Below, piece by piece: positions 54,572-57,400 of a DNA stretch of 64,000 nucleotides (position 1 is its first letter; every line of letters begins with the position of its first letter). Position numbers and translations under genes: made by a program. Origin of the DNA: Eggerthellaceae bacterium. Lineage in GTDB: Bacteria > Actinomycetota > Coriobacteriia > Coriobacteriales > Eggerthellaceae. The stretch lies in assembly GCA_009782605.1 (NCBI GenBank), contig WRIR01000001.1:1-64000 (forward strand). The letters run 5' to 3'. Below the pieces are notes generated by a model. That model made no database searches. It was not told where the DNA came from and saw only the letters and a program-made list of their open reading frames with translations.

Positions 54572-55552
54572 TCACAGCACCTTCAGCACGAGGTAGGTGT
54601 TGAGGTGCTTGGTCCGGCCGTCCGAGGTGAAGCGGGAGGCCAGGGAAGCCCTGCCCGCGACCGACTCGACGAGGCGGTCGATCTCAGGCTCGGAGAAGCT
54701 GTGGCAGTAGCGGTAGGTACCGGGGATGCCCTTCCAGCCGAGCAGGCGGTCGTTCCCGTCGAGCCTGCCATCCAGCTCCCGGAGGCCCCCTTCCGCAAGG
54801 GCGCGCTCGTGGGAGTGGCGGGCCTTCTCCCTCAGGGCGGCGTCGTTCAAGAACTGCCACAGCGAGACGGCGACGAAGCCGCCGGGGCGCGTCTGCGCCA
54901 CCAGGCTTGCCAGGACCTCTTCCCGCCATACCGGGAGCGGGACATGGTGCATGAAGCCGAACGAGACCGAGAGGTCGCATGCGGGCGCCTCCACCTTGTC
55001 GCCGATGCGCAGGCCCTGAAGCAGCGTGCCCAGGACATCGAGGCTCTGGTAGCTCACCGAGACCCCGGCCGGGGGGCTGCCGCCTGGGGGGCTGCCTGGG
55101 GGCGCCGACCCGCGGTCGGCCGGGGACGCCGGGGGACCGCCGATCGGCGCCGACTCGTCGGCTGCCGGAGCCGTCGGGAAAGCCGCCACCTCGCCGCCAG
55201 CCAGGACGCTGCCGCCTGGCGCACAGCCAGCCGCCGCCCCGAAACCGGCCAGGGAGTCGCAGTTGTCCACGGCGTAAAACGCGATATCCGCCCCGGGGAA
55301 GGCCGAGCCCAAGAAGGCCGCGAACCTGAGGTTTCCGCATGCGAGGTCGAAGGCCGAAAGCCCGCAGTCGGCAGCACGGCGGGAAAGGCTGCCCGGCCCT
55401 CCCCCTGTGCCATCCCCCGCATCCTCCATGGCCGCAAGGCACCTCTCCCACCCCGGCCAGGGGGCCCTGCGCGTCGCCGAGAAGGAGGCCCCGCAGTCCC
55501 GGTAGAAGCCATTGTTGAGTTTCCACAGTATTTCAGCAGTCCTGGTGTCCAT
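54572..55552 (-). CDS. Trm9-like class I SAM methyltransferase
   Basis: The 326-residue enzyme shows features of Trm9/ALKBH8 wobble-uridine methyltransferases: FSATRRAPWPGW near the start, DLACGNLRFAAFL (SAM motif I), FGFMHHVPLPVWREEVLASL and RPGGFVAVSLWQF, then YCHSFSEPEIDRL. A Gly/Pro/Ser insert (GGPPASPADRGSAPPG) interrupts the fold. It is divergent, 42 bases away, from an Elp3 gene. In eukaryotes Elp3 makes cm5U and Trm9 methylates it, so a shared tRNA pathway is inferred. Start ATG 55552. Confidence 0.75.
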   Translation of the reverse strand: MDTRTAEILWKLNNGFYRDCGASFSATRRAPWPGWERCLAAMEDAGDGTGGGPGSLSRRAADCGLSAFDLACGNLRFAAFLGSAFPGADIAFYAVDNCDSLAGFGAAAGCAPGGSVLAGGEVAAFPTAPAADESAPIGGPPASPADRGSAPPGSPPGGSPPAGVSVSYQSLDVLGTLLQGLRIGDKVEAPACDLSVSFGFMHHVPLPVWREEVLASLVAQTRPGGFVAVSLWQFLNDAALREKARHSHERALAEGGLRELDGRLDGNDRLLGWKGIPGTYRYCHSFSEPEIDRLVESVAGRASLASRFTSDGRTKHLNTYLVLKVL

Positions 55553-55594
55553 AGCCCGCCTATGCCGTCCTCTCTTGGTAGAATGCACTGTACC

Positions 55595-57400
55595 ATGGAA
55601 AGCGTTTTGTTGGAAATACTCGAAGGGCTGCGCACGGGGCGCTGCGTGGACGAAAGGCAGCTCGCAAAGCTGCTCCACCGGCACAACCGGGGCCTCGGCG
55701 ACGGGCAGCGCCACGCCGCGAAGAAGCGGCTGCTGCCCTATTACCTGAAGGTGAGGGAGGCCGACCCCGCACGCTGGGCCCGTTGGGACGTCCGCCCCGA
55801 CCTGGAACGGCAGCTCTTCGGGCTTTTGCGGGTGAAGCCCCGGCGGACCGCGTCGGGCGTGGCCACCATAAGCGTCATCACGAAGCCCTGGAAGTGCTCA
55901 AGCGCGTGTGCCTACTGCCCGAGCGATCTCAGGATGCCGAAGAGCTACCTTTGCAGCGAGCCCGCATGCCAGCGTGCCGAGCGCAACTACTTCGACCCCT
56001 ACCTGCAAGCGGCCTCGCGCCTGCGTGCCCTGACGCAGATGGGGCACCCCACCGACAAGGTCGAGCTCATCATCCTCGGGGGCACCTGGAGCGACTACCC
56101 GCCCGCATACCAGGCCTGGTTCGTCACGGAGCTGTTCCGGGCGCTCAACGACGGCGACGTCGAGCAGAAGGCCAAGGCGCGGCGCGCCTTCTACAAAGGC
56201 ACGGGGCTCAGCAGCTGCGCAGAAGAGCTGGCCGAGCGCGTCGCCGGGCTCCAGAAACGCGTGGATGCGGGCTCGTTGGGCTACAACCAGGCGGTGGAGC
56301 GCCTCTACGGGAAGGGCAGCGCCTGGGAAGAGGTCGCCGCAACACAGGAAGCAAGCCTCGGCGACCTGGCCGAGCAGCACCTCGCCAACGAGACCGCCCA
56401 GCACCGCGTGGTCGGCCTGGTCGTCGAGACGCGCCCAGACGCCGTCACCGGCGAAAGCCTGATGCTGCTCAGGCGCTTCGGCTGCACCAAGGTCCAGATG
56501 GGCATCCAGAGCATCGACCCCGGCGTCCTTGCGGCCAACGGCCGCGCCATCGGCGTCGAGAGGATCCGCGAGTCCTTCGAGCTGCTCAGGGTATTCGGCT
56601 TCAAGATACACGCGCACTTCATGGTGAACCTCCTGGGCTCGTCCCCCGAACAGGACAAGGAGGGCTACCGGCGCTTCGTCACCGAGGCGCCCTACCTGCC
56701 CGACGAGGTGAAGCTCTACCCCTGCGTCCTCGTCGAAGGAACGCCGCTCGGCACACATTTCGCCGACGGGTCCTGGCGGCCCTACGGCGAAGACGAGCTG
56801 GTGGACGTCCTCGTGGCAAACGCGCTTGCCACTCCCCCGTTCATCAGAATATCGCGCATGATCCGCGACATTTCCGCACAAGACATCGTCGCGGGGAACA
56901 GGAAGGCGAACCTGCGGCAGACGGTGGAGCGTCGCGTCGGCGAGACGGGCAAGGCCCTGCGCGAGATACGCTCCCGGGAGATAGGCACGGGCGAGGTCGA
57001 GGTCGAAGACCTCAGGCTTGAGACCCTTGACTACGAGACCGCCGTCAGCCGCGAATTCTTCCTCCAATGGGTCACCCCCGAAGACAGGATTGCCGGGTTC
57101 TTGCGCCTGTCCCTGCCAAGGCCCGCCTATGTGCAGGAGCATCAGGCAGACCTGCCCGTCAGCCCCTTCGAGGCCATGGTCCGCGAAGTCCACATCTATG
57201 GCGCCGTCGCCCAGCTGCACCGCACGGGCTCAGGCGCCCAGCACCTCGGGCTCGGCAGGCAGCTCGTCGAGGCCGCCTGTGCGCTTGCACGGTCACAGGG
57301 CTACCGAAAGCTCAACGTCATAAGCTCCGTCGGAACTCGCGAGTACTACCGCGCCCTCGGCTTCACCGACGTTGGCCTCTACCAGCAGATTCCCCTTTGA
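55595..57400 (+). CDS. elp3: Elp3-family tRNA uridine modification enzyme (radical SAM + GNAT)
   Basis: The 601-residue protein has the Elp3 radical SAM core, CSSACAYCPSDLRMPKSY and NYFDPYLQAASRL, ELIILGGTWSDYP, and QHRVVGLVVETRPD with GIQSIDPGVL, followed by a C-terminal GNAT acetyltransferase (REVHIYGAVAQLH, SGAQHLGLGRQLVEAA). Elp3 puts the carboxymethyl group on wobble U34 in tRNA. The start is uncertain: ATG 55595 or ATG 55583; no strong ribosome binding site. It is divergent from a Trm9-like gene. Confidence 0.93.
   Translation: MESVLLEILEGLRTGRCVDERQLAKLLHRHNRGLGDGQRHAAKKRLLPYYLKVREADPARWARWDVRPDLERQLFGLLRVKPRRTASGVATISVITKPWKCSSACAYCPSDLRMPKSYLCSEPACQRAERNYFDPYLQAASRLRALTQMGHPTDKVELIILGGTWSDYPPAYQAWFVTELFRALNDGDVEQKAKARRAFYKGTGLSSCAEELAERVAGLQKRVDAGSLGYNQAVERLYGKGSAWEEVAATQEASLGDLAEQHLANETAQHRVVGLVVETRPDAVTGESLMLLRRFGCTKVQMGIQSIDPGVLAANGRAIGVERIRESFELLRVFGFKIHAHFMVNLLGSSPEQDKEGYRRFVTEAPYLPDEVKLYPCVLVEGTPLGTHFADGSWRPYGEDELVDVLVANALATPPFIRISRMIRDISAQDIVAGNRKANLRQTVERRVGETGKALREIRSREIGTGEVEVEDLRLETLDYETAVSREFFLQWVTPEDRIAGFLRLSLPRPAYVQEHQADLPVSPFEAMVREVHIYGAVAQLHRTGSGAQHLGLGRQLVEAACALARSQGYRKLNVISSVGTREYYRALGFTDVGLYQQIPL

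Follow-up and report, generated by a model that had tools for sequence, protein, structure and literature searches.

A Trm9-like methyltransferase encoded beside Elp3 in Coriobacteriia suggests a minimal bacterial wobble-uridine pathway

Do some bacteria modify the wobble uridine (U34) of their tRNAs by the chemistry of archaea and eukaryotes? The question is raised by a locus in a 64,000-nucleotide stretch of DNA (the window) from contig WRIR01000001.1 of a gut-type Eggerthellaceae bacterium, a member of the class Coriobacteriia. It holds a gene for Elp3 (55595..57400, plus strand, 601 aa, TIGR01211), which combines radical S-adenosylmethionine (SAM) and Gcn5-related N-acetyltransferase (GNAT) parts and is a putative tRNA U34 carboxymethylating enzyme, and a gene for a Trm9-like class I SAM-dependent methyltransferase (54572..55552, minus strand; 326 aa, translated from 54575-55552). 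A gap of 42 bp (55553..55594, no strand) lies between the ATG codons of these divergent genes. A sequence-only reading of the locus had described this arrangement and quoted the stretches FSATRRAPWPGW, FMHHVP and PGGFVAVSLWQF from the methyltransferase; coordinates and translation confirm both. The conserved start of the methyltransferase is the ATG at 55552, and the GTG at 55714 merely bounds the mechanical open reading frame. With a probability of roughly 0.78, we interpret the pair as a pared-down bacterial form of the wobble-uridine pathway known from archaea and eukaryotes, which would convert U34 to 5-carboxymethyluridine (cm5U34) and then to its methyl ester, 5-methoxycarbonylmethyluridine (mcm5U34). 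The interpretation draws on homology, active-site conservation, co-occurrence, linkage, and the lack of MnmE and scarcity of MnmG in the class, all of which are visible in the sequences.

The recurrence of the pair far exceeds chance. Among 150 Coriobacteriia genomes, strong matches to Elp3 were found in 63 and the methyltransferase in 62, every one of them Elp3-positive (Fisher p 6e-42, uncorrected for shared ancestry). The sole Elp3-positive genome without the methyltransferase is G097, and the methyltransferase occurs in none of the 87 Elp3-negative genomes, so that the co-occurrence across genomes that the sequence-only reading had proposed to check is borne out. A phylum-wide sample of 199 genomes gave the same picture, with both genes confined to an identical set of 14 (methyltransferase in 14/14 Elp3-positive and 0/185 Elp3-negative genomes). 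In 60 of the 62 class genomes, the two genes share a contig and are at most 5 kb apart. For G019, one of the remaining two, a contig break could account for the separation, as the 5' sides of both genes face contig ends; only in G137 is the pair truly separated, by ~240 kb. An independent collection of 80 loci from GTDB genomes contained 71 divergent pairs and 2 co-directional ones in the order methyltransferase-then-Elp3 (73 side by side); Elp3 was missing from the stretch in the other 7, and 4 of those genomes carry it elsewhere in the assembly. A third order, Elp3-then-methyltransferase, is found in G037 and G053, and loci L063 and L072 also depart from the divergent order. Since adjacency survives three arrangements, selection appears to hold the pair together, and a shared function is hard to avoid.

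It might be argued that two unrelated genes were simply co-inherited from the ancestor of the class and belong to no common pathway. The Coriobacteriia do share ancestry, and 60 linked genomes are not 60 independent events. Against this stand the three gene orders with adjacency kept, and the joint presence or absence of both genes within single genera: G113 has neither and G135 both, and G057 has neither where G045, G069 and G083 have both. Strongly diverged versions are also linked in other actinobacterial families, and in the unlinked cases G137, L078 and L106 Elp3 is still present elsewhere in the genome. Mere hitch-hiking is already hard to maintain, and we consider it very improbable. 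The diverged pairs come from three genomes outside the class (G181, G205 and G217; families f44 and f53), in which a shorter, strongly diverged methyltransferase is divergent from Elp3; one of the three methyltransferases was searched and has Trm9 as its best PDB match (E 1e-17). These loci (L119, L117 and L118, respectively) belong to small-genome actinobacteria and combine an Elp3 of archaeal length with the diverged Trm9-like neighbor; they could be the better model of an ancestral bacterial pair. Two further loci are unusual. G059 has two methyltransferase copies (L011 and a second on contig C6), one of which adjoins Elp3, and L075 (JAISJO010000084.1), from a metagenome-assembled genome labelled Propionibacteriaceae, carries a coriobacterial-type pair, the result of mislabelling, misbinning or transfer.

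The Elp3 assignment is supported by domain content, structure matches and catalytic residues. The protein scores 409 bits against TIGR01211 over residues 71-596 (curated cut-off 350), contains the Pfam domains Radical_SAM, Radical_SAM_C and Acetyltransf, and has bacterial and archaeal Elp3 as its top PDB matches (5l7j and 6ia8, E <=1e-82; 5l7j at E 5e-84). It was aligned with Elp3 proteins to a total of 70, all actinobacterial. The motif CSSACAYC (codons 101-108; 55895..55918, plus strand) provides the [4Fe-4S] cysteines C101, C105 and C108 (CxxxCxxC), which are conserved in 70/70. In Elp3 of Methanocaldococcus infernus, E207, K302 and Y304 were shown to be essential by a 2026 study, in which the Y304F variant was partly active with acetyl-CoA (PMC13315578). 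The corresponding codons in the window, Glu278 (56426..56428, plus strand) for Glu207 and Lys373-Leu-Tyr375 (56711..56719, plus strand) for Lys302 and Tyr304, are likewise kept in 70/70, and the M. infernus tunnel residue M156 is Leu in 69/70. The best PDB match, Elp3 of Dehalococcoides mccartyi (5l7j), is a bacterial Elp3 that acts alone; in comparison with it, the window protein has an insertion of ~70 aa in the radical SAM part (residues ~187-255), as well as an N terminus longer than that of the crystallized construct. The distant actinobacterial Elp3 proteins of L117-L119 are shorter in the region of the insertion.

The identity of the methyltransferase is less easily read. As a single sequence the window protein matched no Pfam or NCBIfam family, and a PDB search found Trm9 at E 0.03, which made a family profile necessary. 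A profile of 30 homologues (A1) had Yarrowia Trm9 as its best PDB match (5cm2_Z, E 1.7e-6, from the Trm9-Trm112 complex); the match after it was 200-fold weaker (3.4e-4), and CmoA stood at 1e-3. By hhalign, the family matched yeast Trm9 at 97.1% and an independent Trm9 profile at 99.7% (E 1.3e-26, 215 columns, full length). The independent profile was built from five sequences, none of them from the coriobacterial methyltransferase family. The yeast Trm9 sequence was verified against PDB 5cm2 (E 1e-71), and the Yarrowia sequence was taken from printed PDB alignments. When this profile was run over the 150 Coriobacteriia genomes, the best full-length matches were the Elp3-linked methyltransferases, and the window protein was the top match of its own genome; generic methyltransferases also matched, mostly across the Rossmann core alone. 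An AlphaFold2 model of the window protein (mean predicted local distance difference test score, pLDDT, 85) is confident outside one low-complexity insert, with residues 106-157 low. The insert is rich in Gly, Pro and Ala, spans residues 103-165, and largely falls below pLDDT 50; most relatives lack it or have a short one. A Foldseek search with this model returned Trm9-Trm112 second of 643 PDB matches, with a target-normalized template modelling (TM) score of 0.70, the highest among the matches listed. A tree of 260 columns placed the coriobacterial family on the same side as Trm9 and the distant actinobacterial relatives, opposite nine E. coli methyltransferases (support 71/28); the distant relatives joined Trm9 at 92/80. 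CmoM or CmoA as the closest relative was considered and rejected, given the E-value of CmoA in the profile search and, for CmoM, the lack of the key residues and a place outside in the tree.

These key residues are known from yeast, where the Trm9 substitutions R29A, H115A, R241A, Y243A and N271A cost the enzyme tRNA affinity and activity, and R29, H115, R241 and N271 orient cm5U34 (PMC5372719). Aligned to yeast Trm9, the window methyltransferase has Arg28 for Arg29 (55469..55471), His202-His203 for His115-His116 (54944..54949), Arg281-Tyr282-Cys283-His284 (RYCH) for Arg241-Tyr242-Tyr243-His244 (54701..54712) and Asn318 for Asn271 (54599..54601), all on the minus strand. Arg28, both histidines and Asn318 are invariant in the 30 homologues, as are R281, C283 and H284, so that four of the five mutation-tested positions are matched and invariant (R28, H202, R281 and N318). 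The R29/H115/R241/N271 set is found in none of the nine E. coli class I methyltransferases, which include CmoM and CmoA, and the N-terminal TR..W motif is not common as a set to CmoM, CmoA, UbiG, BioC and others of E. coli. The likeness to yeast Trm9 and the ALKBH8 domain takes in the class I fold, the N-terminal F(S)xTRxxPW, the HH and RY.H motifs and the C-terminal Asn, along with profile and fold similarity, and the reaction we propose for the methyltransferase is theirs, cm5U34 to mcm5U34. The bacterial protein differs from yeast Trm9 in lacking the long linker before RYYH and in having its own variable low-complexity insert. The assignment to Trm9/ALKBH8, which the sequence-only reading had made from motifs, is upheld by profile, fold, active-site and co-occurrence comparisons.

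The genomic setting is that of a class that lacks the usual bacterial route to the same position. MnmE was found in 0/150 Coriobacteriia genomes, and MnmG exceeded its cut-off in one (G072:C8:4785-6713), which has neither MnmE nor Elp3; this lone MnmG is probably contamination or a lone transfer. The MnmE-MnmG route, with MnmC and MnmL-MnmM, acts on the same tRNA position and presumably serves the same codons as the pair would, through unrelated enzymes. MnmA is present in 145/150 genomes, that of the window included, and 2-thiolation is therefore likely. From these elements we infer the products, the tRNA targets and the independence from Trm112 in the following scheme. Elp3 would use SAM and acetyl-CoA to carboxymethylate U34 at C5 in tRNAs that read A- and G-ending codons, giving cm5U34. 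The Trm9-like enzyme would then methylate the carboxylate from SAM to the methyl ester mcm5U34, without a Trm112 partner, and MnmA, encoded elsewhere in the genome, would add a 2-thio group on some tRNAs to give mcm5s2U34. The pathway would thereby fill the slot that MnmE-MnmG occupies in most bacteria.

Several observations weigh against this scheme. The main reservation concerns Tyr243 of yeast Trm9, which is important for activity and is replaced by an invariant Cys283 in the coriobacterial family. Of L117-L119, one has Tyr here, another Cys and the third Phe, so that otherwise close candidates differ at this residue. Identity of the methyltransferase to Trm9 is about 22-27%. In the structural comparison with Trm9 that the sequence-only reading had suggested, Trm9 came second in the Foldseek ranking and the first place went to 3sm3, an uncharacterized archaeal methyltransferase. 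The suggested tree, for its part, did not place the protein outside the Trm9 group; its support of 71/28 for that grouping is weak, so the tree by itself proves little, and the Trm9 assignment is not refuted by it. Known Trm9 and ALKBH8 enzymes require Trm112, whereas no stand-alone Trm112 was found by PF03966 in the 150 Coriobacteriia genomes; the few matches were short stretches inside longer frames, and a diverged Trm112 could have been missed by this search. We would therefore say that the methyltransferase probably works like Trm9, rather than that it is a Trm9-Trm112 complex. The co-occurrence p-values, moreover, disregard shared ancestry. Finally, 87/150 Coriobacteriia genomes have neither gene of the pair, and these also lack MnmE and, in all but one case, MnmG. 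The pair as an obligatory replacement of MnmEG was rejected on this count; with 87 genomes lacking both routes, it is dispensable and not simply a required substitute. Nor do we claim a strict mutual exclusion of Elp3 and MnmG: the two did not overlap in the phylum sample, where MnmG occurred in 0/14 genomes with Elp3 and 35/185 without, but the difference is not significant (Fisher p 0.14).

Some of these points would suit a methyltransferase with another target, in which case Elp3 would make cm5U34 and its neighbor would methylate some other group of that tRNA, such as a 2'-O or a ring nitrogen close to the anticodon, the two genes being kept together because their products act on the same tRNAs. 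Class I methyltransferases switch substrate easily, the Tyr243 replacement is found in every coriobacterial member, and the overall identity to Trm9 is low. The residues that have been kept, however, are the very ones with which Trm9 orients cm5U34 (PMC5372719), together with the TR..W motif, and the strict dependence of the methyltransferase on Elp3 (0/87 without it) fits an enzyme requiring the Elp3 product. We regard a different methylation target as unlikely. The combination of Cys283 and the lack of Trm112 could also set the family apart as a bacterial Trm9 lineage whose product is an uncatalogued wobble nucleoside, such as another ester or an amide of cm5U, in place of plain mcm5(s2)U, and to this we assign a similarly small chance.

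Another doubt concerns whether the ester is the end of the pathway. It could be an intermediate or a side branch, with 5-carbamoylmethyluridine (ncm5U34) or another cm5U derivative as the end product and the methyltransferase providing a feeding or protecting step. The species found in the archaeon Thermoplasma is ncm5U34 (cited in PMC5372719), and ncm5U builds up in the yeast trm9 mutant (PMC3110198). Derivatives of cm5U are thus interrelated in ways that are not fully understood. We know of no amidating enzyme that would complete such a route. No third gene keeps a consistent link to the pair, and where 2-4 kb separate the two, the gap holds no conserved partner; what lies between are unrelated insertions, namely a helix-turn-helix regulator and a DUF4097 protein in a Collinsella-like genome, and rubrerythrin and a glyoxalase family protein in G111. 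An end product beyond the ester is improbable in our judgment, and mcm5(s2)U34 is the outcome that we favor.

The type of reaction proposed has a bacterial precedent in E. coli CmoM, which esterifies a wobble-uridine carboxylate in converting uridine 5-oxyacetic acid (cmo5U34) to its methyl ester (mcmo5U34). CmoM differs in having no equivalents of R29, H115, R241 and N271 and in its place in the tree, among the other methyltransferases of E. coli. The nearest known systems are the Elp3 and Trm9 orthologues of archaea such as Sulfolobus and Haloferax, which also operate with no Elongator subunits and whose genes are reported to be clustered in Sulfolobus; they differ from the coriobacterial pair in that Trm112 and the thiolation enzyme Tuc1 are reported in archaea, where Coriobacteriia have MnmA (PMC5372719). 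Elp3-Trm9 clustering as such was therefore already described. A 2017 review considered bacterial relatives of the Trm112-dependent methyltransferases not detectable (PMC5372719), and a 2020 review described bacterial U34 modification as MnmEG-type chemistry, with cm5U and mcm5U assigned to archaea and eukaryotes only (PMC7694415). In the literature searched, which left out most subscription papers and preprints, we found no report of a bacterial Trm9 and no paper linking Elp3 with Coriobacteriia. The sequence-only reading had taken a compact bacterial pathway without Elongator partners to be new. This stands for the Trm9-type partner and not for Elp3, which acts without other Elongator subunits as a rule in bacteria and archaea (PMC13315578). 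What is apparently novel is a putative bacterial Trm9-type partner of Elp3, bacterial in contrast to Trm9 and ALKBH8, with a Cys invariant at the Tyr243 position and apparently without Trm112, in a class lacking MnmE and virtually lacking MnmG.

The intergenic region offers a view of how the pair may be expressed. In the window, a -10-like element, TAGAAT (55579..55584, plus strand), ends 10 nt before the Elp3 ATG. Of 55 divergent loci, 52 have a TANNNT hexamer 4-14 nt ahead of the Elp3 ATG, against a mean of 9.4 and a max of 18 in shuffles; a -10-like hexamer precedes the methyltransferase ATG in 39/62 (shuffles: mean 11.3, max 21). The closeness of these hexamers to the ATG codons suggests leaderless or near-leaderless transcripts from the intergenic region. 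In several loci of the series L031-L110 the two -10 elements are merged into one palindrome, as in AGTATACT within the 22-bp gap of L060, L073 and L100, and ATTCTATACTATAGAAT in L039; bidirectional promoters of E. coli resemble such merged -10 palindromes (PMC12825309). The neighbors of the pair in the window are unrelated to it: one flank has a rhomboid-family protein, the other an alpha/beta hydrolase followed by an open reading frame that by eye resembles a P-type ATPase.

Across the Coriobacteriia the two genes come and go together and stay neighbors, which suggests that some bacteria use Elp3-Trm9 wobble chemistry in place of the usual bacterial one. If this is true, many common gut actinobacteria, among them Slackia, Gordonibacter, Collinsella, Senegalimassilia and others, would use wobble chemistry of the eukaryotic and archaeal type, bacterial Elp3 would acquire a physiological role, and Trm9 chemistry would be available as a two-gene system free of Elongator subunits and Trm112. 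How U34 is modified at C5 in actinobacteria without MnmEG, an issue left unanswered for Mycobacterium tuberculosis (PMC10531406), also becomes directly testable with the pair.

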